From NCBI GenBank assembly GCA_017935565.1, contig JAGBHK010000008.1, positions 62,001-126,000 of the forward strand: a DNA stretch of 64,000 nt, given 5' to 3'. Position numbers and translations under genes: made by a program. Within the stretch, counting starts at the first letter, position 1. Every line of letters begins with the position of its first letter. Below, piece by piece: positions 12,246-30,172 of this stretch. This stretch comes from Lachnospiraceae bacterium (lineage in GTDB: Bacteria; Bacillota; Clostridia; Lachnospirales; Lachnospiraceae). Under the pieces are notes generated by a model. The model was not told the DNA's origin, did not search any database, and saw nothing but the letters and a program-made list of their open reading frames with translations.

Positions 12246-12327
12246 GGATTCCACTTCCTTTCTACTTTTATTATTAAGACAAGTTTTAAAATGCTTAGCA
12301 TTTCTGCTGTCCTAAATTAAATAAATA

Positions 12328-12367: not shown

Positions 12368-12422
12368 ATGATTTTACTATGTCATATATATTTTTTCAAG
12401 AAAAAATAGTTTACACCAAAAA

Positions 12423-13043
12423 CTATTTCTGCAACATACTTGAAATACTCTTCAAAATGTTATCATTAATCTTTATAAGTACCTTAAGGAAAGTTACTAC
12501 CTGTGCCATAATAACTGCATTTCCATTGCATTTTTGAACAATTGAAATACCAAAGTAAATGAAATTATCCTCAAGCGCCATAAATATGTCCGAATTATCC
12601 TTCTTTGTTTCCATAATTCTGATAACATTTAACTGATTAGAGATACTAAATATTCTTTGGATATCTGCAAAAAGTGTATCCAAATCAATATTTTGACATC
12701 TAGCATCAACATCTGTAAACACTTCATTTACATACTCTTTTATAGTATCTGCCCAAATTTCATTTTCTTCATTCTCAATTATTGAATAAGCAAACTTCAT
12801 AAGGCACAAATTATAGTTTTCACTTAAGTTTTCCAATGGCTTACCTGATTTCTTAACATAATCAAGATTTCTTATTTCATCAAGTTCCATAGTTGTAGCC
12901 ATCATATTTCTCTTAAGTTCAGAAACCTCGATAGGCTTATTCTTATCCACACCGAAAGCCTCACAAATATCAGACCAAGATTTCTGTATTTCATCAAGGG
13001 TCTCTTTAAATTCATTTACATCTTCTGTGAATTTGTTTTCCAT
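12423..13043 (-). CDS. Unknown helical cytoplasmic protein co-transcribed with tyrS
   Basis: This 206-residue protein is acidic and almost wholly alpha-helical by composition. It has no signal peptide or clear membrane segment and no motif I recognise. It starts 13 bases after the tyrS stop, so it is very likely on the same mRNA and under the same Tyr T-box. The spacing, a clear GGAG-like site and normal codon use suggest a real gene. A function in translation would be a guess from position only. Confidence 0.65.
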   Translation of the reverse strand: MENKFTEDVNEFKETLDEIQKSWSDICEAFGVDKNKPIEVSELKRNMMATTMELDEIRNLDYVKKSGKPLENLSENYNLCLMKFAYSIIENEENEIWADTIKEYVNEVFTDVDARCQNIDLDTLFADIQRIFSISNQLNVIRIMETKKDNSDIFMALEDNFIYFGISIVQKCNGNAVIMAQVVTFLKVLIKINDNILKSISSMLQK

Positions 13044-13056
13044 AATTTAAGCACTC

Positions 13057-14274
13057 CTATAATGTTACTTTCTTGAACATTTTCTTACCCTTCTTGATAA
13101 CAACGCCTGCTTCTAACTGTTCTTTTGTAATTGTAGCCTTAATATCTGCAACCTTTTCGCCATCAAGTGTAACACCACCCTGCTCTACAGCACGTCTAGC
13201 TTCATTTCTTGATGTAACGATTTCTGCTGCAACCATAGCTGTTAAGATATCAACAACACCATCTACAAGTTTGTCTTCGCCAATATTTGCTGTTGGCATA
13301 TTTTCAGCATTACCAGCTGAGAATAAAGCTCTTGAGCTTTCCTGTGCTGCTTTTGCATCTTCTTCGCCATGAACAAGTTTTGTAAGCTCGTATGCAAGAA
13401 TTTCCTTAGCCTTATTAAGCTCGCTTCCTTCCCACTTATCCATAGCATCAATCTCTTCAAGTGGTAAAAATGTAAGCATTCTAATACACTTAAGAACGTC
13501 AGCATCTGCAACATTTCTCCAGTACTGGTAGAACTCGTATGGAGTTGTCTTATTTCTATCAAGCCATACAGCACCTGACTGTGTCTTACCCATCTTCTTA
13601 CCTTCTGAATTAAGAAGAAGTGTAATTGTCATAGCGTGTGCGTCCTTGCCAAGTTTTCTTCTGATAAGTTCTGTACCACCAAGCATATTACTCCACTGGT
13701 CATCACCACCAAACTGCATATTACATCCGTAATCCTGGAATAACTTGTAGAAGTCAAAACTCTGCATAATCATATAGTTAAATTCAAGGAAGCTTAATCC
13801 CTTTTCCATTCTCTGCTTGTAGCACTCTGCTGTAAGCATACGGTTAACTGAGAAATGTGGTCCAACATCTCTTAACATTTCAACATAGTTAAGTCCCAAT
13901 AACCAATCTGCATTGTTAACAAGCATTGCTTTTCCATCTGAGAAATCAATAAATCTGCTCATCTGTTCTTTAAAACAAGCAACATTGTGAGCGATTGTTT
14001 CTTCTGTCATCATCTGACGCATATCAGTTCTTCCTGATGGGTCACCAATCATAGCTGTACCACCACCGATAAGTGCGATAGGCTTGTTACCAGCCATCTG
14101 AAGTCTCTTCATAAGACATAATGCCATAAAGTGACCTACATGTAAACTGTCTGCCGTAGGGTCAAAACCAATGTAGAAAGTAGCCTTTCCATTGTTAACC
14201 ATCTCTCTAATCTCTTCTTCATTTGTTACCTGTGCAATAAGTCCTCTTGCAACTAATTCTTCGTAAATCTGCAT
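13057..14274 (-). CDS. tyrS: Tyrosyl-tRNA synthetase
   Basis: A class I synthetase that charges tRNA-Tyr, 405 residues, the usual TyrS length. The HIGH-type motif HVGH is at 45-48, the KMSKS-like motif is KMGKT near 226-230, and a C-terminal S4 RNA-binding domain includes [22 protein letters not shown] (quoted in part). Tyrosine-binding segments such as MQSFDFYKL and FGGDDQWSN are present. Expression is controlled by an upstream T-box with a UAC specifier and a strong promoter. The following gene is 13 bases downstream. Confidence 0.97.
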
Positions 14275-14594
14275 TTTTTATAATTTCCTTTCTTTTATTT
14301 TCAGGTTTTTATACAACGAAGGCACCTGCCGCCTTTAATAAAAAGGACGACAAGTGCCGTGATACCACCTTTTTTCGTCACAGCCTCACGACTGCAACCT
14401 CAACGAGTACTTTATTATACTCTGACATTGTAACGGTTGTCTGCCGCCGTAGTCTACAAAGTTAAAACTCTTCGGTACGGAGCTCCCAGATGTATTCGTT
14501 AGTCACTTCCCTTGCGCCTCTCATCAGCCGGCAACTTTCTGTAAGTTTCATAATTAACTACTTGTTCTGTTCATAGCCTTTAATTATTAAGTTG
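14275..14594 (-). promoter_or_regulatory. Tyrosine T-box riboswitch
   Basis: The minus-strand leader has the T-box antiterminator motif GGTGGTATCACGG (14357-14369). In the 3' side of Stem I the string GAATACATCTGGGAGC matches the usual specifier-loop layout, with codon TAC (Tyr) at 14492-14494. The terminator helix pairs GGCACTTGTCGTCCTTT with AAAGGCGGCAGGTGCC around TTATT. The bases after it (TTCGTTGT) are only a weak U tract. Uncharged tRNA-Tyr should stabilise the antiterminator and switch tyrS on. This leader accounts for the whole gap between tyrS and the next gene. Confidence 0.93.
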
Positions 14595-14600
14595 TAGATA

Positions 14601-14629
14601 ATTTTAAAAGGGAAATGTAAATATGTCAA
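14601..14629 (-). promoter_or_regulatory. Promoter of the T-box/tyrS unit
   Basis: TTGACA (14624-14629) and TAAAAT (14601-14606) on the minus strand are 17 bases apart. This predicts a start near 14594, which gives a T-box leader of normal length. Confidence 0.8.
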
Positions 14630-14702
14630 GAGGGATTTTACATAAATTTACTAACTTCGTTTTCTTAACTTATAATGCTATCCTATATTATTATGCATAA
14701 TA

Positions 14703-15605
14703 TTATATTATTGTCAGGTTCGCATTATCAATATCTTTAAATATTTCAGAAAAAATCTTTATCAAAATGTTCTTCGCTTTGTCTGTGTGTTTACCTGCAT
14801 CATCAAAAAAAAGACGTTCTTTATGATATTTTAATCTAAAACCACGTTCAATGATCAATTTAGTAATATTAATAAACCACTTTTTCTGTTCTTCAGCATC
14901 TTTAGGAAACATGTAATTCTTTTTTCCATTTCTAGATAAAATGATTTCTTTAGATTCATATCTATTATTAACTAAGCAAACCAAATCTTGTAAGCAATTA
15001 TCCTCTATAAAGTTTTCCCATGATTTATTGCTTCCTTTCCATTCTTTTTGAATCCAATATGAAAATATTTTTTTATACCCCTTTCTTCCTAATGTTTTAC
15101 CTTCACCAATCATCTTATCAATTTCATCATATAAACTCTCATTAATTTCTTCAGATAAAAATATATCTTTAATAACATCTAATTTATATGTAAAATTATC
15201 TATTGGACACCTTCCAAACCCCGGATTTCCACCTTCAGCAACTGGCAGCATATTTCCTATAGTATAATACACTTTTACATATGCTAAAACATACTTTTCT
15301 AATTCTTCATTATCTTTAACAATAGATAATGGAACATTTTTAGATGTTAAAATATCTGCCGCCACATCAATATACGTATTCGGACAATTGTCATCATTTT
15401 TAGAAAGATAACATCCCTTCGTACTCATTTGACACCTTCTTGTATTCTCATTGCCACAAACTTTCCATTTGTCATTCTCATAAACTGGATATTGATTTTT
15501 ATACTTCCCCACAGCATACTCTGTCACTTCAATCTCAGCTTTCGAATCGTTTGAAGAAATATCATATAAAAATTCATTTTCTTCAAAGTATTTTTTAAAT
15601 TCCAT
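14703..15605 (-). CDS. Unknown 300-residue protein with cysteine-rich N-terminal part
   Basis: There is no signal peptide or membrane helix. The N-terminal third has five cysteines in a CGNENTRRCQMSTKGCYLS-like arrangement, and the centre has YVKVYYTIGNMLPVAEGGN followed by GFGRCPIDNF. I have seen this kind of layout in hypothetical proteins of gut Firmicutes but cannot name a family. It is lysine- and asparagine-rich with AT-rich codons. It ends about 75 bases upstream of the tyrS promoter. It may be an accessory gene, since a probable mobile element sits directly upstream of it. Confidence 0.55.
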   Translation of the reverse strand: MEFKKYFEENEFLYDISSNDSKAEIEVTEYAVGKYKNQYPVYENDKWKVCGNENTRRCQMSTKGCYLSKNDDNCPNTYIDVAADILTSKNVPLSIVKDNEELEKYVLAYVKVYYTIGNMLPVAEGGNPGFGRCPIDNFTYKLDVIKDIFLSEEINESLYDEIDKMIGEGKTLGRKGYKKIFSYWIQKEWKGSNKSWENFIEDNCLQDLVCLVNNRYESKEIILSRNGKKNYMFPKDAEEQKKWFINITKLIIERGFRLKYHKERLFFDDAGKHTDKAKNILIKIFSEIFKDIDNANLTII

Positions 15606-15684
15606 ATAATCACCATCCTAAAAAAAAATCAATTATTATTATATTTTATCATATTTACCACATTTTCACATTATCATTTATAAC

Positions 15685-15978
15685 AATTTCGCCCATAACA
15701 CAGCCATGAGGTTTCCCTACGGTTATTTAGGCGCTACCAAACCTTCTTCATGGATTTCAGCATTTATTAATGCCTACCTGAAATTACCAATTTAAATTTC
15801 AATAGTCAAGTATTCACTATTCACCATTCATGGTTTAAAGTTAAAAGTTAAAATATCTCGTTCAGTTTTGGAATAATTTTCTCCAATATAAACTTTATTA
15901 GTATTTTATACTTTAATTGTGGCGTTACCCCCGCCACGAGGGGCCTAACTTTAAGGTTTTCGTGTTATGGGCGAAATT
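15685..15978. mobile_element. MITE-like element with 17-bp terminal inverted repeats
   Basis: The ends 15685-15701 and 15962-15978 are perfect 17-base inverted repeats (aatttcgcccataacac). The 294 bases between the outer ends have no credible gene. Inside are further foldback segments: ccatgaggttt pairs with aaaccttcttcatgg with a small bulge, and gtggcg pairs with cgccac near 15920. Just outside, ataacaattt (15680-15689) and aaattgttat (15982-15991) are also inverted. I could not see a clean target-site duplication. It fills most of the gap 15606-15979. The size and structure fit a non-autonomous transposon, but a regulatory foldback is possible. Confidence 0.6.
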
Positions 15979-15979
15979 A

Positions 15980-16639
15980 TTAAATTGTTATGAATGTTGT
16001 TGCATTGGATACCTTTATCTGCGTTTCGAGTTCAGATAAAAGCTTGTCCTTCTTCTCTTGAAGCGAAGCCATTTTGACTACTATGTCAAGAGGGTCTGCA
16101 AGTTCCATTGTATTTTCCTTGATGTAGGTCTCTACAACCTCTAAAGGCTTGTCGTCCTTTACTTTTACATCACGACCGAGAATGCTAAGTCGCATATCTT
16201 CGGCAGTTTGAGCCAATGCCTGATTTTTTCGCTCAATAGCATTGATACAAGCGTCGTAATTTGACTTCATGCGATAGAAAAGGTTTGTTTCAAAATCGGC
16301 TTTTCCGTCAAACTTTGCGTCACCTCTCATTCGATTTCGAAGAGAAATCGCACCAGCCACAGAAAATTTTCCATAGCTTGTCTCTATGAATGTTGTGGCA
16401 TTTGATTGAACAATTGCCACTTCAAGCATATTGTATCTTGTAATTAAGTCACATATCTGCTGATATGCACTCTCTACTTCCTTTTTATATTCTTCTCTAG
16501 TAAGTCTGCGCTCGTATACAGTATCTTCGTTATGTTTAACGATATCTGTAAATGTTGCAGCATTTATTTTGTCATTGATTTTTTTCACCAACAAGTCACG
16601 TTCATCAAGCGCCTGTGTTACTAACATTTTTGTTTCCAT
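15980..16639 (-). CDS. Coiled-coil protein resembling the DIP1984/septicolysin-like group
   Basis: This 219-residue protein has N-terminal helices (ALDERDLLVKKINDKINA), a long central coiled-coil-like region, and the phrase SNATTFI twice: near residue 79 with ETSYGKFSVAGAISLRNR after it, and at the extreme C-terminus. The order ALxER...NATT...GKxS...A.S.R resembles small proteins annotated DIP1984 family, but this one is longer and I hold the match loosely. No signal peptide. The stop codon lies one base pair step inside the neighbouring inverted-repeat element, so the element may have inserted at or reshaped the 3' end. Confidence 0.55.
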   Translation of the reverse strand: METKMLVTQALDERDLLVKKINDKINAATFTDIVKHNEDTVYERRLTREEYKKEVESAYQQICDLITRYNMLEVAIVQSNATTFIETSYGKFSVAGAISLRNRMRGDAKFDGKADFETNLFYRMKSNYDACINAIERKNQALAQTAEDMRLSILGRDVKVKDDKPLEVVETYIKENTMELADPLDIVVKMASLQEKKDKLLSELETQIKVSNATTFITI

Positions 16640-16712
16640 ATTCGTCCTCCATCAATTTTTCTCTCGTTCATCCCTGCTACATTTGGTATTATAACGAATA
16701 TGCAAGACCTTG

Positions 16713-16997
16713 TCATTGAACTAGTAGTTTAAAATATCTCCATAAACAACAAGAAGAAGCTTTCGCTTCTTCTTGTTCACACAATATTTGTTCCATCGGT
16801 GTGTCGAACAATCTGCTCAATGCATACAGATTATCAACTGTCGGAAGTGATTCTCCACGCTGCCATTTGTACACGGCCTGTGGGTTTTCAAATCCCATAT
16901 ACTCACATATTTCACTAACTGAAATATGCTTTTTCACACGAATCTCTTTTATTCTGTTACCTGTTGCTTTAATGTCTAATACAGGAAATGTTACCAT
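16713..16997 (-). CDS. XRE-family helix-turn-helix regulator
   Basis: A 94-residue protein whose residues 10-66 form an HTH_3/Cro-type domain: IKEIRVKKHISVSEICEYMG then AVYKWQRGESLPTVDNLYALSRLF. The ATG follows a GGAGG site with good spacing. The tail (EEAKASSCCLWRYF) is encoded by a perfect 13-bp palindrome. The target is unknown; it stands between the unknown coiled-coil protein and the signalling cassette, and could act on its own promoter. Confidence 0.85.
   Translation of the reverse strand: MVTFPVLDIKATGNRIKEIRVKKHISVSEICEYMGFENPQAVYKWQRGESLPTVDNLYALSRLFDTPMEQILCEQEEAKASSCCLWRYFKLLVQ
16748..16777. repeat. Perfect 13-bp hairpin inside the 3' end of the XRE gene
   Basis: The arms 16748-16760 (aacaagaagaagc) and 16765-16777 are perfect complements around tttc. 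It lies 35 bases before the stop codon of the XRE gene, so it is transcribed as part of the coding RNA. It may act as an intrinsic pause or weak terminator within the gene or as an mRNA 3' stabiliser. There is no U tract on the minus strand. Confidence 0.6.
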
Positions 16998-17125
16998 AGG
17001 AATACCTCCGTTTATACAAGTGCAAGTTTACAGTGAAGTTTTTTTATTATAAGCAAATGTTCCTTCTTTGTCAACACTATTTCTTCTTTTCTTAACTGTA
17101 ATTTTTTATATAGATCCAATAAGTT

Positions 17126-19162
17126 TTAGATTCCAATTCTTTCAGTCATACTATGCACAAGTTCCTTTATAAGCAAAGGTAGAAATGGTTTGGTTATAAA
17201 GTCATCACAACCAAGCTCAGCAAACTGGGATGAGGTGCTTAGTTTTTTATCAACTGTCATCAGAACAACAGGAATATCATACCTTTCTTTTATGTGTTGT
17301 AATGTTTCTAAACCACTCATTCCTGGCATATTTACATCAAGCATAATAAGGTCAAACTTTTCATTTTTTAGAAGTTCAAGTGCTTCCTCACCACTAACTG
17401 CTGATTTCATTTCATACATAGGCTCGTCTTTCATAATATGAGAAAGTATCATATTATTCATAGGCTCATCATCTACAGTTAATATTTTTCTTGTTATTTC
17501 CTCTTCTTGACGCATAATATAATTTTTATCCTCATCAATCATCTGAAGCATAATTTCTGTAATATTTGGATCAAACTGAGTTCCTTTTCCATTTTCTATT
17601 TCAGACCTTACAACATCTTGAGGCAGCGCATTACGATAGCTTCGATTACTTGTCATAGCATCATATGTATCTGCAACCGCAAGAATTCTTGCTGCCAAAG
17701 GTATCAAATCGCCTGAAATTCCATTAGGATATCCTGTTCCATCATATCTTTCGTGGTGATACTTTGCTGCCAGTGCAATAAGATTATTTCTTGCTATTCC
17801 ACGAAGAATGTTATAACTTGTTACAGGATGTACTTTAATTATATTGTATTCTTCGTCGGTAAGCTTGCCAGCCTTATTAATTATCTCAACAGGTATACGT
17901 ATTTTTCCTATATCATGAAGTAGACCCGCACGATATATTTCTTCCTGTTCCTCTTGTGACATACCCATGCGCTTTGATATCATTTGCGCATATTCAGCAA
18001 CTCGTTTTGAGTGACCGCTTGTATAACGATCCTTTGCATCTACAGCTTCACTAAGCGCGGTTACAGTCTGCACAAACATTTCTTCTAACGCTTCCTGTTT
18101 TTTTATTAATTCTACATTCTGTTCTTTTACTGTCTGTTCAAGTTCTGTGTTGTTATTGGCTAAATAGTTTATACGCTGCCACTTGTTAGTATCCTCGATA
18201 AGTTCTAAAATATAGCCGTATACCTTGTTATTATATGTTCTTCTGCTAAATCGACACTCAAAATGACGTTCTCCGGTAGTAAAAGTAGTAATATATTCCT
18301 TTTCATCTTTTGGAAAACTTTTAATTGCCTCTTCGAGTTGAGGTATTGCTTTAATAGGATAATCGATATAACATTTTTCAAGTTGAGGAAATACACTCTC
18401 CGCCATTTTATTGCAGCCTAAATAGTTTAGATTACCATCAACCATTATATATCCGTTCGTATAAGTTTTTTGTAATGCCTCTGCTACGCTCTCCTCAATG
18501 CTATAAAGTCTTATTCTATGGTGGATTACAAGGAAGAACCAACCATTGAATACATATAATGCAGGCATCACTTCAAAATCCACATTGATAAATCTACCAA
18601 TAAAAAACAAACTGACATTCATAACCTCTAGTCCAAATAGCAAATAAAGATTTTTTCGTGATACAGAGCGTTTTTTTACTATAGAATGTATAAGCATAGC
18701 CACCTGAATGATTATTGCTCCATAGAGAATAATATAGAACATAGAATGTCCTATTCCGTATTCATTTACAAGTATAGTCGAATCCCAGAGTTTCTCTATA
18801 TGATATTCTGTATAGTAAAGGTCGTTGTAACCTATTGTAAGTATCATTGCATAAACAATCAAACAGTACAAATAAACGCCCATTCTAAATGTTCTTCCGA
18901 AATTATATTTACATATAGAACATATCAAAAATATCATAATCGGTGAAGTAAAACACCCTCCGATGTATGCAATTTTATTTGCAAGCACAGCCTCCTGTAC
19001 ATTTTGAGACAGACCTAGCGCAAGATAGCCTCCGTTCGATATCGCCATAATAAGCATAAGCAGTATAAAATAATAATTTATCTTTTTGTTATCAACAACG
19101 AAAATAAGTGCAAACAAATTAACTATAGCAAGCACTGCTGTTATAATATAATACATTATCAT
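17126..19162 (-). CDS. 7TM-sensor HD-GYP phosphodiesterase with C-terminal receiver
   Basis: A 678-residue membrane protein. Residues 1-225 form seven helices like the HisKA_7TM sensor, about 230-330 a PAS-like segment, about 340-365 a coiled coil, and about 366-545 an HD-GYP domain with HD at 416-417 and [12 protein letters not shown] at 468-479. Residues 558-675 are a receiver domain with the phospho-acceptor D609 in [13 protein letters not shown] and K658. HD-GYP enzymes hydrolyse c-di-GMP; a receiver at the C-terminus with a 7TM front is an uncommon order. Its start overlaps the hybrid kinase stop (ATGA), so the two are coupled. All key residues look intact. Confidence 0.92.
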
Positions 19163-21702
19163 AAGCCATTCACTTCCTCTAATATTATTTTACCAAAAAT
19201 ATCACATATCCTATCATATTGTTCAAAAAGTGTTTCCTGTGCCGAAAGCAACTCTTCGGCGAGGCGATTATCGCTTAAATCCTGCATTTTGGCGGAAAGA
19301 TCACCAAGCAAGGTTGCGCCTATATTATATGCGTTGTTCTTGAAACCATGAATACGGATACGGTAGTTTTCATAGTCTTCAGCGGCAAGAAAGTTGCTAA
19401 GTTCCTCTTTTATAGATAGTTTTACAAAATAGGTAAATATTTGTATATAAAACGCCTTATCACCCACACTTACCGTCAAGCCCTTATTAATATCTATCTC
19501 TGGAAGTTCTACTTTTATCTTATTTATAATTCTGTCGATATTATCGGCAGACAACATATCAGTATTTATCATTTCATATCCTCTGTCTTTATCTTTATTA
19601 TCAGATTTCACGGTTTCATTATCCATTACCTTTTCTTTTGGCAAGTATCTAATTAGCATTTTTTCAAACTTTTTGCCATCAATAGGCTTACTCAAGTAAT
19701 CATCAAACCCCTCTGCGAGGTACATATCCCTCACACCTGAAACGGCATTGGCTGTAAGCACTATCACAGCAGCATTCTTACTCATATTTATAGGCATTTG
19801 CTTAATACGCTTCAATGTTTCAAGACCATCCATTTGTGGCATCATATGATCTAGCAGTACAATATCGTATTTATTTGTACTCATAAGTTCAAGTGCCTCT
19901 TTACCACTCATACATACAGTCACTTTTATCTTTGTGCATTTAAGCATATTTTCAACTACAAGCAAATTTATTTGATTATCATCAACCACAAGTATGCTCG
20001 CCTCTGGTGCTGTAAATGAAGGCGCATATATCTCAACATCCAAGTGTTCGTCATTATATTCATTCAAATTATGCGCGATTACTTCTTTTCCCATTATCTT
20101 CTGCGTAAGAGTGAGTTTGAAGCAAGTCCCCTTACCATATTCACTTTCAACATTTATGCTTCCATTCATAAGAGAAATAAGCCTATGGCTGATTGCTAGC
20201 CCCAATCCCGTACCTTCAATATTGCGATTAGTCGCCAAGTCAAAACGACTAAAATTTTGAAATATATTTGAAAGGTCTTCTTTATGAATACCAATACCTG
20301 TATCGGAAACAGAAATAATAAGCTGGACACAGTCTCCTGTATCATTAACAACTCCATCTGCCTTAAGTCTAACTGATCCTTCATGAGTATATTTTACGGC
20401 ATTGCTCAACAAATTTAATATTACCTGCTTAAGTTTAACGTCATCACCGTAAAGACAATCAGGAAGTTCTTCGTTTATTTCGTCATAAAAAGCAAGTTTT
20501 TTTTCTGCGGCTTTCATTCGAACCATATTCATAACATATTGTAAAACATCGCTAAGCTTATATTCTCGTTCACATATTTCCATCTTACCCGACTCAATTT
20601 TAGTAAAGTCAAGTATATCATTAACTATCGAAAGCAAATTGTGACTGGCATTATTTACGATTCTTGCATATCCTCTTATATCATCCTCAGAGCTTTCACG
20701 CAATATCATCTCATTCATGCCAATTACTGCGTTTATAGGAGTTCTTATTTCATGCGACATATTCGCAAGAAAATCACTTTTAGCACGGTTTGCTTCCTCC
20801 GCCATAATTTTTGCCTGACGCATTTCTTCACTCTGCTGTGCCTTACGTTCCGCACCCATAAGATAAATCATAATTATAACTATCAATACCCATAAAAGAG
20901 CAAAAGTCCAGAGCACAAGCGGTGCTATAATAGATATTTCACCTGCAGGAGCATTTGACGGTACAAAACCCATTATGTATAGACCAGAATAACTTGTTTC
21001 TGCTGCAAAAATTACATTTTTTTCATCACCATCGTATGACGCGGCTGAAACATTTGTATTCATACTTTTTTTAATAGATTCAATTGCATCTACATTTTTT
21101 TTGGTATTTATCTGTCCAATATTCGCTGTTGAGTTTTCCGAACGAAGAATTACATTTCCGTCAGCGTCTATCAGTAAACATTCGCCTAATCCACTATAAC
21201 ATATTAGATTTATTTTTTTTTCAAGAACAGAACTTGAATATAACTTATACAGTACATACTTAACATTTGAGCCACTGTACACAGGTACAGTAAAAAGAAC
21301 TGTATCGTTATGCACACTCACTGCAGGCGTTCCACGTACCGTTTGAAAAAAGCAGTCATAATCAGAAAATTTTGGTTCCTTGCCATAAGCTGATGTTCCA
21401 TCAATGCGCATAACACCATATGTCACACCTTCCTGATTCTCAAACGCATCATTTAATTTTCCACTATCCAAATCAACCGACGCGGCAATGTCGCCTAGCA
21501 CTGCCAATTCATTATCAAAACTACCATCAATCACTTGTGCTGCCATACGGCTATAGCCTGCAACATGACTTTCAACCTGTGTATGTGTGATATCCATAAG
21601 CTTAAACCACATAAGTACACAAACAATGCCAATAATCACAAATCCGCACACTACAAGCAATATGCCATATAAAATCCGCTTGCTATTCACTTTTTTATTC
21701 AT
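19159..21702 (-). CDS. Hybrid sensor histidine kinase with receiver and Hpt domains
   Basis: An 847-residue membrane kinase: helix at about 10-35, extracytoplasmic Cache-like domain (about 40-250), second helix (about 257-283), HisKA with the phospho-accepting H317 in [15 protein letters not shown], and a HATPase with SDTGIGI and GTGLGLAIS. Then comes a receiver (D618 in [13 protein letters not shown]) and an Hpt domain (H785 in [12 protein letters not shown]). No HAMP is obvious. It can relay phosphate His-Asp-His to another receiver, and the coupled HD-GYP protein provides one. The start overlaps the upstream BMP gene by 8 bases and has a good GGAG site. The outer domain is a candidate docking surface for the tethered BMP proteins. 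Confidence 0.93.
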
Positions 21703-22792
21703 ATATCACCACTCCCTCAACAAACCAATCCATATCTGTTAGCAATGCGTCATCACTGAGGGATTCACCTTCGCCACACCTCAATGTACCGCAATTATCG
21801 TAAATAATTCCTGAAAATACATCATTTGAATTATTTAATCTTGTTTTAGCAGTCTCAAGTACTTGTCTTGTTTCATCGCTTACCTGTGGCGATAACTCAG
21901 CAAGTCCTACTACACCGCTTCCTATCTCAAACCATCTACGTTCTACCGCATTTGGTTGTCCTTGCACATATTCCCTAATTATCTGATAATAAAGCAAATC
22001 CCAATCCCATACCGCCGATGTAAGATATTTGTCAGAAAGCCCTTTGGCAACCTCATTATAACCTATTGAATACACTCCTGCCGCATCAGCAGTTTGTGCT
22101 GTATAATGCTGATTTTGATGGTAGGTTATAACATCAACACACTTTTCATTAATCAGCTTTTCGGCTGAGGCTACCTCTTTTTCTTTGTTATCCCATGAAT
22201 TTGTCCAACTCACATATACCTTCGCTTCGGGATTTACACTCTTTACGCCAAGGGTAAATGCATTTATTCCTCGATTAACCTCATTATTAGACATAGCCGC
22301 AACATATCCAATGGAATTGTTCTCGGTCTGCATTCCTGCAACAATCCCTGCAAGATATCTCGCTTGATACATTCTGCCAAAATATGATGTAAGATTATCA
22401 GCTACATATTCAGATGAAATCGCATAAAAAGCAATATCTGGATAACTGGCAATTATATCCCTTACTTCCATAGGGTAAGAATAACTCGACAAAATTATCA
22501 TCCCAACACCTTCATTTACAAGTTGGTGAATAGCTTCAGCACAACTACCATCACCTTCAGCTACATCTTCCTTGACAATAAGCTTTGTCCCAAGTTTCTC
22601 ACACGCAGATACTACACCATCATAATGTACACTATTCCATCCGCTATCTGTTGTTTTACCCGTTATAATAAGACCTATCTTATGTTCAGGATTTCGTTGC
22701 ATGCTTGGCAAAATTAAAATAACCAATACTACAAGCAATGTTACTCCTGCAACAGCAAGTAGTATGCGTTGTTTCAGTTTATGTTTATTCAT
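21695..22792 (-). CDS. Membrane-tethered BMP/PnrA-family ligand-binding protein
   Basis: This 365-residue protein has one N-terminal hydrophobic helix (about 9-29) with no lipobox cysteine, so it is probably anchored rather than a lipoprotein. The BMP family fold follows: [21 protein letters not shown] and [20 protein letters not shown], both marks of PnrA/Med-like receptors that usually bind nucleosides for ABC import. No ABC permease or ATPase is nearby; instead it is fused in operon to a hybrid kinase. The frame opens with TTG at 22795, but the ATG at 22792 follows GAGGGGG better. I infer a sensor co-receptor, not a transporter part. Confidence 0.85.
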
Positions 22793-23876
22793 CAATTACT
22801 ACCCCCTCTACATACCAGTCAAATTCGTTTAACATAGCATTATCTGTCATACTTTCTCCCTCGCCTATCCTAAGCTTACCATTGTTATCATAAATAGGTC
22901 CATAAAAGACATCAAAAGTTCCATCATTAAGCCTTTTTCGTTCATCGCTAATAGCCTTTATAATTTCGCTATTCGCATTATTTGATAATGGAGATATATC
23001 CATTATGCCCGAATCGGAACTTTCCCAAAAATTTTCACCTTCAAATTTACCTTGTAAGCATTTTAATATGTGGGGAGTATAAAATTTTTCCCAGTCCCAT
23101 ACAGCAGATGTCAGACAACTGTTAGGATAAAGTTCACTATTATCTATGTTATATCCAATGGACATGATGCCATGCTCGTCAGCTACTCTAAGTGGCTCAA
23201 GCGAGTCAGTGTGCATAGCAAGCACATCAATATTATATTTGGATATAAGATATTCACTGGCATCAGCTGCTGCCATATCTGAGTTCCAGGACTCTATACA
23301 TCTAACATATATTTTCGCATTTGGATTGACACTTCGTACGCCAAGCGCAAATGCATTTATACCTCTATTTACCTCTGAAATAGGGAATGCTGCCACATAA
23401 CCTATCTCATTATTTTAAGTCTGAAGCCCTGCTGCTATACCTGTGAGGTATCTCATCTGATACATACGTCCAAAATATGTAGACAGATTTTTGCGATAAC
23501 TCGTGCCTGTTGCGTGGAAAAAGAATACTTCAGGGTATTTCTCCGCAGCTACAAGCATTTGTTCACTATATATAGCGGAATTTGCAATTATTATTTCACA
23601 TTTATCTTCTATAAGTTCATCAATAACGGATAATATGTTATCTGCCGTTATAAATTCCTCATATGTTATATCCAAATTAAGCTTCTTGGCACTTTTCTCA
23701 AGCCCCTCATAATGCGACTGACTCCAGCTTTTATCGTCCTTGGAACCATTAAATATAACGCCAACCTTTGTGGCTTTTTCTGTCACCTCTGTGCCTTGCT
23801 CTTGAGTATTGATAAAAAATATTCCTGCTAATATACCTAAAATTACAATTAATACAATTAAAATTATCTTTTTCAT
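22785..23876 (-). pseudogene. BMP/PnrA-family receptor interrupted by an in-frame TAA
   Basis: The first copy of the tethered BMP protein (N-terminal helix MKKIILIVLIVILGILAG, no lipobox) reads cleanly to TGIAAGLQT, then meets TAA at 23415-23417, and continues in the same frame with NNEIGYVAAF to the end at 22785. The intact neighbour has [12 protein letters not shown] at this place, so a single GAA to TAA change explains it. No frameshift is needed. The remaining 209 residues after the stop are conserved, which points to a recent mutation, a sequencing error, or read-through. The ATG at 23876 has AGGAAGG upstream and lies one base after the SGNH stop. Confidence 0.85.
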
Positions 23877-23877
23877 T

Positions 23878-25476
23878 TTACCTTCCTGTTTGTAATTTCT
23901 TCTTTTTCTTAACAACTACGCCAGCAATAACACCAACAACCACAACTATTGCTGCCACAATACCAATTATAACATAGGCATTCAAGCCGCCTTCATCAGT
24001 ATTTTCCATAGTTGCCGTAGTTTCTTCATTGACTTTATTTTTCTTTCCACCAACTGGCTCATATAAAAGTTCCTCTGACTCTTTTGATTCACCAGCGCCA
24101 TTCACTGCCACAACCTTGAATTTGTAAGTTGCCTTCGCATCTGCCTTGCCATATACATATGAATTAGTTGTTGCAAGACCTACAAGTTCATACTCGCCAG
24201 TTTTTCCATCAACAACTTCTGCCACATAAATCTGGTAGAAATCTGCACCCTTACATTCATCCCAACCAATTTTTCTAAGTGTTCTAATCTTGCTCAATGC
24301 TTGAAGATTTGAAGGTGTACTAGGCTTATCACCTGATACCGCAGATGCAACATAAGCATCCTTTAACACATCAATGTCAAGTTCACACAAACCTTCTGCA
24401 ACAAATCCACCGACAAGTTTAGCTCCATATTTTTGAAGATGTGTATTGTCAGCAACACCATCCGCATACGCTCCATCATATTCGCCTGCATCGGCGTGAT
24501 TGAAAATGATTTCTTCTGTTATGCCAATTCCATATTTATTGTTAAGTTCAGTAAATTCCTTAACAGTTCTCGCATTTAAATCCACGAGAAGTGTACCCGT
24601 TTCTTCTGCAACCTCACGCATTGCCACAACATATCTTTCAAAACTCACATTGAACTGTCCTGTTGACTGGTTGTAGTCATTTCTATTGCATAATGTTACA
24701 AGTACAGGTATACCGCCTCTTTGTTCAATTGGAATTATGTACTGCTCTTTTAAATATAACTTGTAATCTTCAACCGATGTATATCTGTCAACTTTATCTT
24801 TTGAAGCGTCATTGTGTCCAAATTCAACAAGTACAAAATCTCCTGGCTTAACATTTATTAGTACCTGATTAAGACGTCCTTCTCTCATAAAACTTCCAGA
24901 ACTTCTACCGCCTAGAGCGTGATTTGCCACAACTACCTTGTTTACATCAAAATAATCCTGCAAAGTCTGTCCCCAACCTGTCTGTGGTGCATAATAGTCT
25001 GTATATGTTTGTACCAATGAATCTCCAATAGTAAAAATCACTGTTTTGTCTTCTTTTTTTATTTCAAGTGGCTTTACTGTAATTTTTGTAATTTTACCAC
25101 TACCATTAGCCTTAATAGTAAGTGTGTCGCTTGTAGCTGCAACACTAAATGTTCTGCTTTCCACAGTTCCAACTACAACTGTCTCATCAATCAGTCCGCT
25201 TCTGTCATTACTTCCGTCTACATTCGGAACCATTTGATCATTAATAACCATATCATATCCTAAATTAATTTTAGAAGCAGCATCTGTAACTCCAGTAAAC
25301 TCAACTGTTACCGAATAATCTTTGCCAGCTGTTACTGGCACAGACAATTCTACGCTTTCATTTACAATTCCTTCATCACCATATTCGTATACCATTTCGC
25401 CCTCCGTTGCATATGTTGACATTGCCCACATCATAGACACACATAATACCAACATAATCTTTATTATTTTTTTCAT
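23878..25476 (-). CDS. Secreted, membrane-anchored SGNH esterase (rhamnogalacturonan acetylesterase-like)
   Basis: A 532-residue extracellular protein: signal peptide (to about residue 24), a beta-rich domain (about 25-140), an SGNH/GDSL hydrolase (about 145-375), a fibronectin type III-like domain (about 390-475), and a C-terminal membrane helix with a Lys-rich tail. The hydrolase shows FTIGDSLVQTY (catalytic Ser), NHALGGRSSGSF, VEFGHNDASKDK and a late DNTHLQKYGA (Asp and His). Family members release acetyl groups from rhamnogalacturonan. The frame opens at 25488, but GGAGG lies 5 bases before the ATG at 25476. It heads the BMP-kinase-HD-GYP operon. Confidence 0.88.
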   Translation of the reverse strand: MKKIIKIMLVLCVSMMWAMSTYATEGEMVYEYGDEGIVNESVELSVPVTAGKDYSVTVEFTGVTDAASKINLGYDMVINDQMVPNVDGSNDRSGLIDETVVVGTVESRTFSVAATSDTLTIKANGSGKITKITVKPLEIKKEDKTVIFTIGDSLVQTYTDYYAPQTGWGQTLQDYFDVNKVVVANHALGGRSSGSFMREGRLNQVLINVKPGDFVLVEFGHNDASKDKVDRYTSVEDYKLYLKEQYIIPIEQRGGIPVLVTLCNRNDYNQSTGQFNVSFERYVVAMREVAEETGTLLVDLNARTVKEFTELNNKYGIGITEEIIFNHADAGEYDGAYADGVADNTHLQKYGAKLVGGFVAEGLCELDIDVLKDAYVASAVSGDKPSTPSNLQALSKIRTLRKIGWDECKGADFYQIYVAEVVDGKTGEYELVGLATTNSYVYGKADAKATYKFKVVAVNGAGESKESEELLYEPVGGKKNKVNEETTATMENTDEGGLNAYVIIGIVAAIVVVVGVIAGVVVKKKKKLQTGR

Positions 25477-25546
25477 AAACACCTCCAACCACCTAAATAA
25501 AACTAACTAATATTTTACCATAAATAATTGCAAATATAAAGCAATT

Positions 25547-26251
25547 TTAAAGCATTTCTTCGGTTCTATAGTCAACTAATTTCTCTCTAAATTGGGCAAG
25601 TTCTTTATGAGTAATTATCTCACCAAATCTATCCCATTTATCCCACATATGCATTGCATATACTTCTTTTACATCAATCTTCTCTAAAAAATATTTTAGC
25701 CCCATATGAGCGTCCTCCATAAGTTTTGGGTCCGCTGGAACAAAAGCAACATCAAAATATTTATCCCCCATTCCATCGATTATTTCTTTATACATTCTTT
25801 CCATTTTAAGTTTAATAGTTTCTTCTGCCTCTGGCCACAGCCACATTCCATTATCGCCAGCATGATAAATATCCTTGCCTTCCACATTTACCATGTATGC
25901 GACGCCCGTATCTGTGGAAGCAGTTGTTTCTATAAATAAATCACCAATATTAAAGTTTTCGTTCTTTCTCACATATGTTATTCTATCATTCAAATCAATT
26001 GGCAATCCTAATCTATCCAAATATTTTTCATTCATTTTGCAACCCTTAGACAAAATATAATGCACCTTGCAATCATCAAATAAATTAAATATTGCTTTAT
26101 TGAAATGGTCGTAATGCTTGTGACTTACAAACACATATACATTCTTTGTTTTATCAAATGCAGGAAGCGCCCCTGTGTAATAATCAAACACTAATACATT
26201 GTTTTCTAATTCAACCATAAATCCACTGTGACTAATATAATAAACATTCAT
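25547..26251 (-). CDS. Metallo-beta-lactamase-fold hydrolase (UlaG-like)
   Basis: A 234-residue cytoplasmic MBL-fold protein with the metal motif VSHKHYDHF (about 42-50) and a later [14 protein letters not shown] (about 128-141). The layout resembles UlaG-type lactonases and related unknowns. The aspartate and histidines of the HxHxDH signature are present, but the first position reads HKHYDH. Substrate cannot be read from sequence. It is divergent from argH, and the two share the 70-base gap, where the argH promoter overlaps the start of this gene. Confidence 0.82.
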
Positions 26252-26253
26252 AC

Positions 26254-26282
26254 TTGTACCTCGTCAATTTTTTTGATATACT
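26254..26282 (+). promoter_or_regulatory. Candidate promoter of argH
   Basis: TTGTAC (26254-26259) and TATACT (26277-26282) are 17 bases apart. A start near 26290 would leave about 30 bases before the argH ATG. The AAAGAAAGGA site lies between. Confidence 0.55.
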
Positions 26283-26320
26283 ACTACAAGTATACACCAA
26301 AAAGAAAGGAAAATAAACAT

Positions 26321-27694
26321 ATGAAACTTTGGGGCGGACGTTTCACTAAAGAAACAAACCAGTTAGTACATAATTTTAATGAATCATTATCATTTGATCA
26401 GAAATTCTATAAAGAAGATATCGAAGGCAGTATTGCCCATGTTACAATGCTTGCTGCACAAGGTATTATTTCAAATGAAGATAAATTCGCCATCATTGGT
26501 GGCTTAAATTCGATTAAAGACGATATCGAGAATGGTACTCTTGAAATCGGGCCAGGACATGAAGATATTCACTCTTTTGTTGAAGCTAATCTTATCGAAA
26601 GAATCGGTGATGCTGGCAAGAGACTTCATACAGGTCGTAGCCGCAATGACCAGGTTGCTCTTGATATGAAGCTTTACACTAGAAATCAGGTTGCAGAAAT
26701 GGATGAATTACTTAAAGATTTACTTAAAGTTATTCATAGAATTATGGCTGAAAACCTTGATACATATATGCCGGGCTTCACACATTTACAAAAGGCTCAG
26801 CCTATTACATTAGCTCATCATTTCGGAGCATATTTCGAAATGTTTAAGCGTGACAGAAGCCGTTTATCAGACATCTACGATAGAATGAACTACTCACCTA
26901 TCGGTTCAGGTGCTTTAGCTGGTACTACATATCCACTTGATAGAGAACTTACAGCTTCTTTACTTGGATTTACTGGAGCTACACTTAACTCAATGGATTC
27001 GGTTTCAGACAGAGATTACCTCATTGAATTTTTAAGTGCAATGGCAACTATTATGATGCATTTAAGCAGATTCTCAGAAGAAATTATTATTTGGAATACT
27101 AATGAATATAGATTTGTAAATATTGATGATTCTTACAGCACAGGTAGTTCAATTATGCCACAGAAAAAAAATCCTGATATTGCAGAGCTCGTTCGTGGTA
27201 AGACAGGTCGTGTGTACGGTGCATTAATCTCTCTTCTTACAACTATGAAGGGACTTCCACTTGCATACAACAAAGATATGCAAGATGATAAAGAATTTAC
27301 ATTTGATGCCATCGACACAACAAAAGGTTGTATCAAACTTTTCACTGGTATGATTGAAACTATGACTTTCAATAAAGATAATATGGAAGCTAGTGCAAAG
27401 AACGGATTTACTAATGCTACTGACGCTGCTGACTACCTTGTTAAAAAGAATGTACCTTTTAGAGATGCTCACGGTATCGTAGGACAGTTAGTTCTTTTCT
27501 GTGAAAGCAAAGGAATCGCTCTTGATGATATGACTTTAGAAGAGTACAAAGCTATTAGCCCTGTATTTGAAGAAGACATCTACGAAGCAATCAGTCTTAA
27601 AACTTGCGTTGAAAAGAGACTTACAATCGGCGCTCCTGGTAAAACTGCTATGGAACAGGTTGTAAAGATAAACGAAGAATATTTGAATAAATAG
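26321..27694 (+). CDS. argH: Argininosuccinate lyase
   Basis: ArgH splits argininosuccinate into arginine and fumarate. The open frame begins upstream, but the protein starts at MKLWGGRF (ATG at 26321, AAAGGA site before it), giving 457 residues, the family length. The fumarase-superfamily signature [12 protein letters not shown] sits near residue 278, and [13 protein letters not shown] and [13 protein letters not shown] match other ArgH blocks. There is no argG next to it, so this is a stand-alone arginine gene. Confidence 0.97.
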
Positions 27695-27773
27695 TTTTCA
27701 ATTCCATTGATATATGATATAATACTCCTATCAAATTTGTGGTTAAAATTTAATATTAGGAGGATTGTAATTT

Positions 27774-28169
27774 ATGGCAATGACAAACGGAACACAGACA
27801 ATCGAGGTTATACCTGGAAGAAAGGTTATTTTATCTTCATGTAATGGCAGAACTAATGTCGACGAACTTAAGTGGCTTTGCGAAACTATTTTAAAAGAAG
27901 CTTCTGCTTGGAAGGATGGTTGGGCTTATGTGGCTGACTGCTCTGGTATGAAACCAGTTACTCCAGCAGAAAGTAAAGAATTAGTTGTAATGACTAAAGC
28001 TTTTGTTGACGCAGGATGTAAAGCATTTGGTTTTGCTGAAGGTTTTTCTACAATGCTTAAAATTCAGACAAAAAAGAACACTGAAATGTCTGAAACAGGC
28101 GTTATGGAAGGCCACTTTGCAACTAGAGAAGAAGCCCTTGATTGGCTAAAAAATGATTTAGGTTTATAA
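27774..28169 (+). CDS. Small conserved protein, STAS-like in layout, unknown
   Basis: A 131-residue soluble protein with an alternating beta-alpha pattern: a strand (VILSSCNG), a helix, a strand (WAYVADCSGM), a helix (ESKELVVMTKAFVDAGC), then another strand. This looks like a SpoIIAA/STAS-type or similar fold, but no signature serine context is sure. TATAAT at 27717-27722 may be its -10, and GGAGG is 9 bases before the ATG. A strong terminator follows. Genes of this size and shape are common as unannotated orphans in Lachnospiraceae. Confidence 0.7.
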   Translation: MAMTNGTQTIEVIPGRKVILSSCNGRTNVDELKWLCETILKEASAWKDGWAYVADCSGMKPVTPAESKELVVMTKAFVDAGCKAFGFAEGFSTMLKIQTKKNTEMSETGVMEGHFATREEALDWLKNDLGL

Positions 28170-28175
28170 AATTCA

Positions 28176-28203
28176 AAAGGATGCAGTTTTCGCTGCATCC
28201 TTT
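28176..28203. terminator. Terminator of the plus-strand orphan gene, possibly bidirectional
   Basis: The arms 28176-28186 and 28193-28203 are perfect complements over 11 bases around ttttcg, followed on the plus strand by tttatcttttt. It stops the plus-strand gene and lies 14 bases from the end of the converging minus-strand gene. Confidence 0.85.
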
Positions 28204-28216
28204 ATCTTTTTAATCA

Positions 28217-29140
28217 TTATTGGTTATCTAACTCTTTCAGTATTTTTTCAACATTGCAACCAACCGCATCTTTCATTGCTATGTCATATATCTTTTTAAT
28301 ATAATCAAAATCCTCTTCCAACTCTTCTGCAATTATATCAACTGTTTTTTGTTTTTGTATCTTTCTAACAATCTGTGATACTAGGAGTTCTATTCTTCCT
28401 TCTATTCTTCCTTCTATTCTTCCTTTTTCTCTACCAATTTCTTCACCCTCAAGCCTTACATCCATATCATGAAGCAATGTTTTCATATATTCCAACCTCC
28501 ATTCCTTGTTTTGTCTTGCTTTCCTTACAGCTATATCCACCTTATCTGTAAAAGCGTTTACTGACTTTTTTGTTTCAATATAATCTAAAAACTCTTTTAC
28601 TTCTGTTGATACATTTACCCTTTTTCCTTTAGTGTTAAAAAATAGAATTTTACGTCCATCTTCTAATGAAAAATTTTCATCCTTAACACTATAGTTTTCA
28701 AACTCATAATAGCATAATGCTTTTCCAAACGGATCAAATGTGCATATAAACATTATATAACAGTTCTTTAACTCCTTATACACGCCTCCGCTTTCAAGTA
28801 AATTCAAATCAACCATCCCCGAATAATATCTGGCTCTTTTTGGTAAATCTTCATTTTTATTTTGCATTTCTGCATCATATACTACATTATTACCATCTTC
28901 TACATATACATCATATCTAATCCCTTTACTATCATTAGTAACTTTAACCGACTTTTGAGCATTGATAGTTATATCTTCACCAATCTCTTTTCCTGTCAAT
29001 AATTCAATTAGTTCCGTACATAGGCTCTTATCCTGCATAACTTTACCAAATATAAAATCATTCTTTATGGTTTGATTTTCATACACCATATCCTCTGGTA
29101 TGTTTGTCAACAGTTCCATTTCATCATATTCTTTTACCAT
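28217..29140 (-). CDS. Rpn-family / PD-(D/E)XK transposase-like nuclease
   Basis: A 307-residue protein of the Rpn family, whose members promote RecA-independent recombination. The nuclease core has IRYDVYVED followed by VVYDAEMQN (the D and E-x-Q of the catalytic motif) and later RARYYSGMVDLNLL. The C-terminal part contains three GRIE repeats encoded by near-identical 12-base units (28390-28430). The ATG at 29140 has AAGGAGG well placed; the frame opens 12 codons earlier. A hairpin (arms 29167-29173 and 29190-29196, gcaggag/ctcctgc) lies in the leader. Confidence 0.88.
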   Translation of the reverse strand: MVKEYDEMELLTNIPEDMVYENQTIKNDFIFGKVMQDKSLCTELIELLTGKEIGEDITINAQKSVKVTNDSKGIRYDVYVEDGNNVVYDAEMQNKNEDLPKRARYYSGMVDLNLLESGGVYKELKNCYIMFICTFDPFGKALCYYEFENYSVKDENFSLEDGRKILFFNTKGKRVNVSTEVKEFLDYIETKKSVNAFTDKVDIAVRKARQNKEWRLEYMKTLLHDMDVRLEGEEIGREKGRIEGRIEGRIELLVSQIVRKIQKQKTVDIIAEELEEDFDYIKKIYDIAMKDAVGCNVEKILKELDNQ

Positions 29141-29294
29141 ATAAATCCTCCTTAATGCAATTATTTGCAGGAGCATTTATACTCGAAATCTCCTGCTGTT
29201 GTAATATTGATTATTTCAGCATAGATTTCCTTAAAAAAATAAATAAATAGACTTTGAAAAATAAATAATATATACAATGATAATTAGAAATTTT

Positions 29295-29322
29295 ATGCTT
29301 GTGTTAAGCATAACACAAGCAT
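29295..29322. repeat. 12-bp perfect inverted repeat after the HAD gene
   Basis: The arms 29295-29306 (atgcttgtgtta) and 29311-29322 are perfect complements around agca. It lies 31 bases beyond the HAD stop codon on the minus strand and is followed by AAAATTTC rather than a U tract. It may still serve as a weak terminator or 3' mRNA barrier. Confidence 0.5.
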
Positions 29323-29353
29323 ATGACCAACGCAACTCATTTTTCTTTAAAAA

Positions 29354-30172
29354 TCACCTAAAATTTTTACTCAACCACCTTGCAACACCATCCTCATCAT
29401 TCCCCTGAATAATGCCTGTTGCTACTTCCTTCAATTCGTCAACTGCATTTTCAACAGCATAGGCTTCGTCTGCCAATTCAAACATATCGATATCATTTTT
29501 CCCGTCGCCAAATACAACCAGTCTTTCACATCCAAGTTTTTTCGTAAGTTGCTTTATTGCATTTGCCTTAGAAGCATTCTTTGGCATTATTTCTAACCAC
29601 TGTGTCTGCGTGTATATGTCCACTTGGAATACAAGATGATATTTTTCCATATACTTTTTAAAAAAAGGCTCCAACTTTTCTCTATCATCAATGCATGTAA
29701 TATAAAAAATCTCTCCGTTTAATAATTCATTCTCATTATATACAATATTTGTTCTTTTGTCATTTTTCCTAGTATCGAGAAACTTCTGCATTCCCATAGT
29801 ACACTTATCATGTACATACGAGAATTTCTCAACACCATCTATAAATGAGTAGACAATAGGATATACCTTGTTTTCAAATAAATCATTAAGCAAATCTGCT
29901 ATGTCATTGCCAAAAAAGTTTTTTATCAAAAACGAACCGTCTATGTTATCAACAACCATCGCTCCATTGTATATAATCAATGGAATCCTTGCATTCAATC
30001 CCCTAGTCACTTTATGAGAAGTTTGAAACGACCTTGCTGTTGCATACGAAAATAGCATTCCTTCATCTACTAAATCGTTTATAATTTTATTGGTAAATTC
30101 AGATGTCTTTTCATCACTTCCAAGCAATGTTCCATCTAAATCTGATACATATAGAGTTTTGTAATCAGCCAT
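29354..30172 (-). CDS. Cof-type HAD-IIB sugar phosphatase
   Basis: A 272-residue HAD phosphatase: motif I YVSDLDGTLLGSD (about 8-20), motif III with lysine in NASKANAIKQLTKKL, and motif IV VVFGDGKNDIDMFELAD near the C-terminus. A Cof-type cap lies between. Such enzymes dephosphorylate sugar phosphates or cofactors, often with broad specificity. The frame begins with an earlier ATG at 30190 that lacks a ribosome site, while GGAAGG is placed correctly for the ATG at 30172. Confidence 0.9.
   Translation of the reverse strand: MADYKTLYVSDLDGTLLGSDEKTSEFTNKIINDLVDEGMLFSYATARSFQTSHKVTRGLNARIPLIIYNGAMVVDNIDGSFLIKNFFGNDIADLLNDLFENKVYPIVYSFIDGVEKFSYVHDKCTMGMQKFLDTRKNDKRTNIVYNENELLNGEIFYITCIDDREKLEPFFKKYMEKYHLVFQVDIYTQTQWLEIMPKNASKANAIKQLTKKLGCERLVVFGDGKNDIDMFELADEAYAVENAVDELKEVATGIIQGNDEDGVARWLSKNFR

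Follow-up and report, generated by a model that had tools for sequence, protein, structure and literature searches.

A segment of 64,000 nucleotides from the genome of a Lachnospiraceae bacterium (assembly GCA_017935565.1, contig JAGBHK010000008.1, positions 62,001–126,000; hereafter the window) carries two adjacent genes for BMP-family receptor proteins, named BMP-A and BMP-B, followed by genes for a hybrid histidine kinase and an HD-GYP protein with a receiver domain. Comparison with relatives indicated that this arrangement, present in numerous gut bacteria, is apparently a widespread, undescribed variant of the binding-protein/kinase three-component systems, in which the BMP receptors are usually paired and enzymes of cyclic di-GMP (c-di-GMP) adjoin the kinase. 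We consider it fairly probable that the two BMPs and the kinase, which has a double-Cache (dCache)-type outer domain, form a membrane receptor complex, and that this complex senses purine bases and passes the signal to a phosphorelay controlling the level of c-di-GMP. No such system was described in the text available from the open-licence papers searched.

Results

The BMP–kinase gene order in relatives

Contigs of GTDB genomes were scanned by alignment with BMP-B, which gave 399 confirmed relatives, and gene order was counted at the 80 best-scoring loci (47–88% identity; 11 of them under 8 kb). Genes were taken as the longest open reading frames of at least 100 aa, and domains were assigned by BLAST from the domains of the window and its relatives, with spot checks by Pfam. 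BMP-A was found directly upstream of BMP-B at 76 of the 80 loci, a figure that takes in the L107 remnant and the L139 copy, which the contig cuts short. Of the four exceptions, three begin at a contig edge, and L142, which is not at a contig end, has no BMP-A. The kinase gene came directly after BMP-B at 77 loci, the contigs of the remaining three stopping there, and the order BMP-A, BMP-B, kinase was complete at 70 loci. The search for this order in relatives, which the initial annotation of the window had proposed, thus found it to be widespread. The exact four-gene order, with a seven-transmembrane (7TM) HD-GYP gene, was seen elsewhere in L067 only.

The kinase sensor was searched with a profile built from 52 of the 80 loci and the window. 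In 397 genomes of the window's family, it gave 21 strong places (at least 179 bits; the next score was 81 bits) in 20 genomes, and a BMP gene lay directly upstream in all of them, as a pair in 15 and singly in 6. Seven of these places belong to the BMP-B set, three (in G000, G011 and G024) had already been met through BMP, and 11 were new. When the search was extended to 398 phylum genomes with an E-value limit of 1e-25, it added 11 places. These come from five genomes belonging to another family, with as many as four in one genome, and all again have BMP upstream (4 pairs, 7 single). When the new places were pooled, BMP and kinase occurred together in 22/22 and the BMP pair in 9/22. A BMP adjoining a kinase with an extracytoplasmic domain was therefore present at 77/80 BMP-found and 32/32 kinase-found places, and these relatives, obtained through both BMP-B and the kinase sensor, ruled out an oddity of one strain. 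Within the window's genus, three of eight genomes have the BMP pair; the loci of the congeners G001 and G004 already figure in the BMP-B set as L095 and L091. A scan of viral contigs with BMP-B returned no relative, and among the best 20 of 488 plasmid records the BMPs were at most 35.1% identical.

Among 18 weaker loci fetched from the family, the sensor was fused to GGDEF in 10 by BLAST. In L193, L195, L200 and similar loci, the sensor domain of the kinase also heads GGDEF-type proteins that have no BMP neighbour; that of L193 is a dCache_1-GGDEF-EAL protein.

BMP proteins without a nearby importer-type permease

Both BMP-A and BMP-B have the PF02608 domain and the fold of BMP/PnrA receptors. 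An N-terminal hydrophobic stretch was present in 73/74 BMP-A and 78/79 BMP-B proteins, and a lipobox in 0/79 BMP-B and 5/74 BMP-A (by a loose pattern, with the Cys inside the hydrophobic helix) as against 24/28 other BMPs. The latter were hand-picked and include three encoded beside HD-GYP, three beside chemoreceptor and one beside SpoIIE genes. We infer that BMP-A and BMP-B are held in the membrane by the N-terminal helix.

Homologues of importer-type permeases were found at none of the 80 loci or the 29 module loci obtained through the kinase, as far as the contigs extend. In the comparison set, a permease and an ATPase, with seeds confirmed by Pfam, were present at 20 of 25 other BMP loci; of the five loci outside this count, four (L042–L044 and L035) have signalling neighbours, described below, and L038 lies near a contig end. 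The constant company of an ABC permease and ATPase, which the initial annotation had set against its own view, was thus not observed at the module loci. The host genome (81% complete) contains no other BMP and no match to the permease family PF02653. That the BMPs serve a nearby importer was rejected on the near absence of a lipobox, the lack of importer-type permeases as far as the contigs extend and the lack of a PF02653 match in the 81% complete host genome.

Several of the other BMP genes have signalling genes as neighbours. At L042:7348-10258, L043:8737-11737 and L044:194-3122, in three genomes, BMP is directly followed by an sCache_3_3-MCPsignal chemoreceptor gene with no importer genes found within three genes, and the two are likely a BMP–chemoreceptor pair. 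At L035:9138-11992, BMP is followed by a gene for a 4HB_MCP-HAMP-SpoIIE phosphatase, and at L056:8916-13797, L061:5558-10331 and L065:8464-13346 it overlaps a gene whose product of some 1200 aa contains Reg_prop, Y_Y_Y and HD-GYP domains; these three BMPs have the pocket residues of importer BMPs, and those of L061 and L065 have no lipobox match. From the chemoreceptor, SpoIIE and HD-GYP neighbours, BMPs have seemingly been recruited repeatedly as signal receptors. Proteins of roughly 650 aa with a C-terminal BMP domain were also seen (L045:8228-10189 and many frames of 646–691 aa), and in the one that was scanned the first 300 residues matched no Pfam family.

Covariation of the receptors with the kinase outer domain

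Covariation was measured as correlation of distances over the 69 loci having BMP-A, BMP-B and kinase. The value was 0.78 for BMP-B and the outer domain, 0.76 for BMP-A and the outer domain and 0.82 for the two BMPs, as compared with 0.53 for the outer domain and the kinase core of the same polypeptide. When the core was taken into account, the partial values were 0.68, 0.66 and 0.70, respectively (0/2000 permutations as high), and that of BMP-B and the receiver was −0.14. Thinning to 55 loci altered the covariation little. Given the core, the BMPs therefore covary with the outer domain, a check suggested in the initial annotation, and not with the receiver, and the pattern fits a contact between the proteins.

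The predicted phosphorelay and the neighbouring c-di-GMP enzymes

In Pfam, the 847-aa kinase of the window matched HisKA, HATPase_c and Response_reg, and weakly Hpt (E 0.11, under the cut-off). The phosphorelay residues of the initial annotation were located correctly, both in the kinase and in the HD-GYP receiver, and across relatives H317 was kept in 74/74, D618 in 73/74 and H785 in 71/74 kinases, the last with 3 gaps. The model of the kinase sensor, when compared with solved structures, showed a double-Cache fold; the sensor structures of LuxQ and TorS were absent among its 50 listed matches, which is not evidence against kinship. The 678-aa HD-GYP protein matched HisKA_7TM, HD_5 and Response_reg, and it has the catalytic motifs HDIGK at 416 and HHE...GYP spanning 469–479 (HHE 469, GYP 477).

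The c-di-GMP enzymes made up 55 of the 249 genes within two places and 4 of the 386 genes at least four genes away, the distant genes being taken from the same loci. An enzyme of this kind bearing a receiver lay within two genes at 48 of the 70 complete loci and directly downstream at 35 of 65, in the architectures REC-GGDEF, REC-HD-GYP, HD-GYP-REC, 7TM-HD-GYP-REC and kinase-Hpt-REC-HD-GYP. The motif HD[IVLM]GK was found in 36/36 and the longer GYP pattern in 30/36 HD-GYP neighbours. The type of output within two genes varied across the 80 loci, with HD-GYP only at 29, GGDEF only at 16, both at 7 and neither at 28, and in the congeners G001 and G004 a receiver-GGDEF protein occupies the position of the window's HD-GYP protein. 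On the BMP-B tree (45 labelled rows) the output type needed 4 changes, 3 of them forced by well-supported branches, as compared with a mean of 13 after shuffling. The host genome has 19 GGDEF and 6 PilZ matches. Thus, of the earlier idea that the phosphorelay ends in c-di-GMP breakdown, the link to c-di-GMP was retained because its enzymes adjoin, and breakdown as the necessary outcome was given up. At L030:10345-15720, a kinase that has lost the Hpt histidine was seen, followed by separate HisKA-receiver and receiver-Hpt genes.

The predicted ligand pocket

In sequence as well as in fold, the nearest solved relatives were AtzT with guanine bound (TM-score 0.80 by query length) and 3S99 with adenine modelled (0.78), both with 27–29% identity. 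The ligand residues of AtzT are Ser97, Glu165, Asn218 and Asn220, with a sandwich of Tyr45 and Trp194, according to PMC6834077. Using AtzT numbering hand-counted from the alignment (chain number plus 5), these correspond in BMP-B to S104, E172, H226, N228, W53 and W201, respectively. E172, W201 and H226 were invariant in 74/74 BMP-A and 80/80 BMP-B, and W53 and S104 were kept in 71/74 and 80/80. Position 228 was Asn in 78/80 BMP-B and Asp in 67/74 BMP-A as well as in 27/28 other BMPs, which suggests that the two BMPs may take different bases. A purine base is the best guess for the ligand. The binding fold of the BMP family assumed in the initial annotation was thus found, and nucleosides gave way to purine bases because the latter are bound by the closest solved BMPs.

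The window locus and the limits of the unit

The five genes listed in Table 1 run head to tail on the minus strand (25488-17126), with neighbours overlapping or one base apart, and the layout given in the initial annotation was reproduced from coordinates and Pfam domains. Bmp (PF02608) was matched by BMP-B and by both pieces of BMP-A.

Table 1. Features of the BMP–kinase locus, in window coordinates.
Feature	Position	Strand	Description
SGNH/GDSL esterase, weak FN3	23878..25488	-	Neighbour outside the module
BMP-A	22785..23876	-	Receptor of the BMP family (PF02608); hydrophobic helix at the N-terminus, lipobox absent; reading frame broken by a TAA
TAA stop in the BMP-A frame	23415..23417	-	Intact BMP-A copies present in relatives
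BMP-B	21695..22795	-	Receptor of the BMP family; hydrophobic helix at the N-terminus, fold resembling AtzT, purine-type pocket (W53, S104, E172, W201, H226, N228)
Hybrid histidine kinase	19159..21702	-	Transmembrane helix, extracytoplasmic dCache-type domain, transmembrane helix, HisKA (H317), HATPase, receiver (D618), weak Hpt (H785)
7TM-HD-GYP-receiver (D609) protein, predicted c-di-GMP phosphodiesterase type	17126..19162	-	Same gene adjoins the kinase in L067

L067, from the Lachnospiraceae metagenome-assembled genome (MAG) SIG330, is the nearest relative found. When it was compared with window positions 12001-30000, one shared block of DNA was obtained (window 17125-23895, 84% over 6.8 kb), containing BMP-A with its leader, BMP-B, the kinase and the HD-GYP gene through its end; two further matches were cross matches between the BMPs. 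The block begins 19 bases ahead of the BMP-A start. As the esterase stop lies one base before that start, the shared leader reaches into the last esterase codons, and the esterase itself is outside the block.

The esterase had been taken as the head of the cassette, and this was rejected by the block boundary at the BMP-A leader and by the absence of any SGNH match across the 80 related loci. Pfam identified it as a GDSL/SGNH hydrolase with FN3 slightly under the cut-off, the solved relatives found were YxiM and rhamnogalacturonan acetylesterase, and the name pectin esterase is weakly supported, the PaeY model scoring 59.5 bits where its cut-off is 1000. The supposed tie to plant cell wall use was dropped, since it rested solely on this gene.

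The cassette proteins of the window and L067 genomes are 84–89% identical, with a divergence at silent sites (dS) of 0.5–0.8. For the same pair of genomes, argininosuccinate lyase showed 74.5% identity with saturated silent sites, two other window genes showed 68% and 70%, and window DNA matching elsewhere was 68–76% identical except for short and tRNA matches (79–89%). The cassette of L067 has sharp boundaries and lies in a different genomic place. The higher identity of the cassette, together with these boundaries and this place, suggests horizontal transfer, and chimerism of a MAG is less likely.

Elsewhere in the window, a T-box leader (14340-14583) precedes a gene judged from its sequence to be tyrosyl-tRNA synthetase-like, and the Rfam scan of the window gave this T-box and one tRNA and nothing else. 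A gene for a PD-(D/E)XK transposase-family nuclease lies near the cassette at 28217-29176.

Discussion

The proposal that BMPs act as co-receptors of a kinase phosphorelay finds support in its core, given the order BMP-A, BMP-B, kinase, the lack of an importer permease, the covariation and the complete relay residues, and it has lost the esterase and the obligatory breakdown of c-di-GMP. Several observations weigh against the purine-sensor reading and are gathered here with the alternatives that they favour. The counts come from the best 80 of the 399 relatives and the kinase profile was derived from those same loci; beyond them, single BMPs are common (13 of 22 new places). The N-terminal helix may be cleaved instead of anchoring the BMPs. 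The raw correlations with the kinase core were 0.65 for BMP-B and 0.62 for BMP-A, that of BMP-B with the receiver was 0.43, and in the distant half of the comparison BMP-B and sensor (0.24) stood no higher than BMP-B and core (0.27), the other values there being 0.38 for BMP-A and sensor, 0.40 for the two BMPs and 0.12 for sensor and core. The covariation could alternatively come from exchange of the BMP-A, BMP-B and sensor block as one unit. Among the cyclase neighbours, GG[DE]EF was complete in 18 of 23.

The same receptor and phosphorelay may respond to a ligand other than a purine base, such as a nucleoside, a base carrying a modification, a vitamin-like heterocycle or some other aromatic compound, and we regard this as the most serious alternative, although the less probable one. 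Nucleosides, riboflavin and hydroxyatrazine are likewise ligands of BMP relatives, the best NCBIfam match, to a B6-type BMP, scored 61.7 bits where the cut-off is 400, Tyr45, Asn218 and Asn169 of AtzT are replaced by Trp, His and Gly, the first two being contact residues, and position 228 differs between the two BMPs. The identical pocket residues are kept in importer BMPs, so the pocket predicts the class of ligand and not a sensor role. However, AtzT and 3S99 remain the nearest by both sequence and fold, the Trp and His are the same residues as in 3S99 by alignment, and the remaining contacts are invariant or nearly so.

It is rather doubtful that this copy of the cassette is in decay, with the receptor pair killed by the BMP-A stop and the remainder left as a relic. 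The nonsense codon noted in the initial annotation was confirmed as an in-frame TAA, so that BMP-A is broken here and the window copy may be impaired, and at L107:2267-2581 BMP-A is reduced to its last 104 residues ahead of BMP-B. The BMP-A of L067 is an uninterrupted protein of 363 aa, and the ratio of replacement to silent substitution (omega) was 0.11 before and 0.09 after the stop and 0.09–0.11 in all four cassette genes. An omega of about 0.1 on either side indicates that BMP-A was under constraint until recently, and any loss would be recent. Moreover, the BMP-B, kinase and HD-GYP frames are open and single-BMP versions exist elsewhere. The TAA may be a fixed change, a variant of the strain or an error of assembly.

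Signalling by the kinase to another partner, for example, a transcription regulator, with c-di-GMP genes adjacent by chance, appears unlikely. At 20 of the 70 complete loci, no c-di-GMP enzyme was present within three genes or in the kinase (some contigs end there), for which another output must exist, and at some loci a lone receiver protein adjoins the kinase. The enrichment of c-di-GMP enzymes near the kinase and the receiver-bearing enzymes in several architectures speak against chance. That the BMPs are ordinary importer receptors for a transporter encoded elsewhere, placed beside the kinase through a shared regulon, is very improbable. PF02608 takes its name from ABC importers, and two module genomes, G011 and G024, have additional BMP genes that lie beside ABC genes at other places (L059 and L060), but a lipobox, a nearby importer-type permease and a PF02653 match in the 81% complete host genome are all missing, and the BMPs keep a fixed order with the kinase and covary with its outer domain. 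Also to be set against the purine-sensor reading, an ABC ATPase homologue lies within three genes at 4 of the 70 complete loci and a PF00528-type permease lies downstream in L067.

The purine-sensor reading would work as follows. Two paralogous BMPs, held in the membrane by the N-terminal helix that hydropathy and the lack of a lipobox suggest, would take up extracellular purine bases, or compounds much like them, in their binding sites, as predicted from the pocket. Docking on the dCache-type domain of the kinase, which the covariation and the fixed gene order suggest, would let them control kinase autophosphorylation. Phosphate would pass from H317 to D618 to H785 and to the receiver of the neighbouring c-di-GMP enzyme, here putatively D609, whose phosphorylation in the 7TM-HD-GYP protein would alter the amount of c-di-GMP. 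Other species have this sensor next to a diguanylate cyclase, and some versions have a single BMP; in the window genome, BMP-B would have to sense alone, unless the stop is a variant of the strain or of the assembly. As a tentative and rather speculative extension, BMP-A (Asp228, as in adenine-modelled 3S99) and BMP-B (Asn228, as in guanine-binding AtzT) might sense different purines and jointly set one dCache kinase, which would make a two-channel nucleobase comparator wired to c-di-GMP with exchangeable sign (cyclase or phosphodiesterase), in a self-contained four-gene cassette moving between gut bacteria.

To our knowledge, the input signals of most c-di-GMP circuits are unknown. Information on such signals is described as very scarce for Vibrio cholerae (PMC11245519). 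If the purine-sensor reading is true, gut Firmicutes gain a testable extracellular c-di-GMP input in purine bases, BMPs of the importer type have repeatedly been turned into signal receptors that partner a kinase, a chemoreceptor, an HD-GYP protein or a phosphatase, and nature supplies a series of sensors whose output sign differs among relatives.

The proposed system resembles LuxP-LuxQ, TorT-TorS, XylFII-LytS and CuaD-CuaS, in which a binding protein is described as acting on the extracytoplasmic domain of a kinase; in CuaD-CuaS the binding protein is likewise encoded beside its kinase (PMC6321045, PMC10384115). Those three-component systems have one binding protein, whereas two BMP paralogues are usual here. 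CuaD is predicted to be acylated and BMP-A and BMP-B have no lipobox, and CuaDSR controls genes whereas the neighbours here are c-di-GMP enzymes. With AtzT and 3S99 the BMPs share the fold and most of the base-contacting residues; they differ in the replacement of Tyr45 and Asn218 of AtzT, in having no adjacent transporter and in the coupling to a kinase. The Med-type BMP 2HQB, third by sequence in the PDB and deposited as a transcriptional activator of comK, is another BMP with a regulatory label. We know of no kinase partner for it. The purine sensors with a dCache_1PU domain, one of which is a cyclase controlling c-di-GMP, are alike in the logic from purine to c-di-GMP and in the dCache-type fold (PMC11245519); there the dCache domain itself binds the purine, whereas here separate BMP proteins are predicted to do so.

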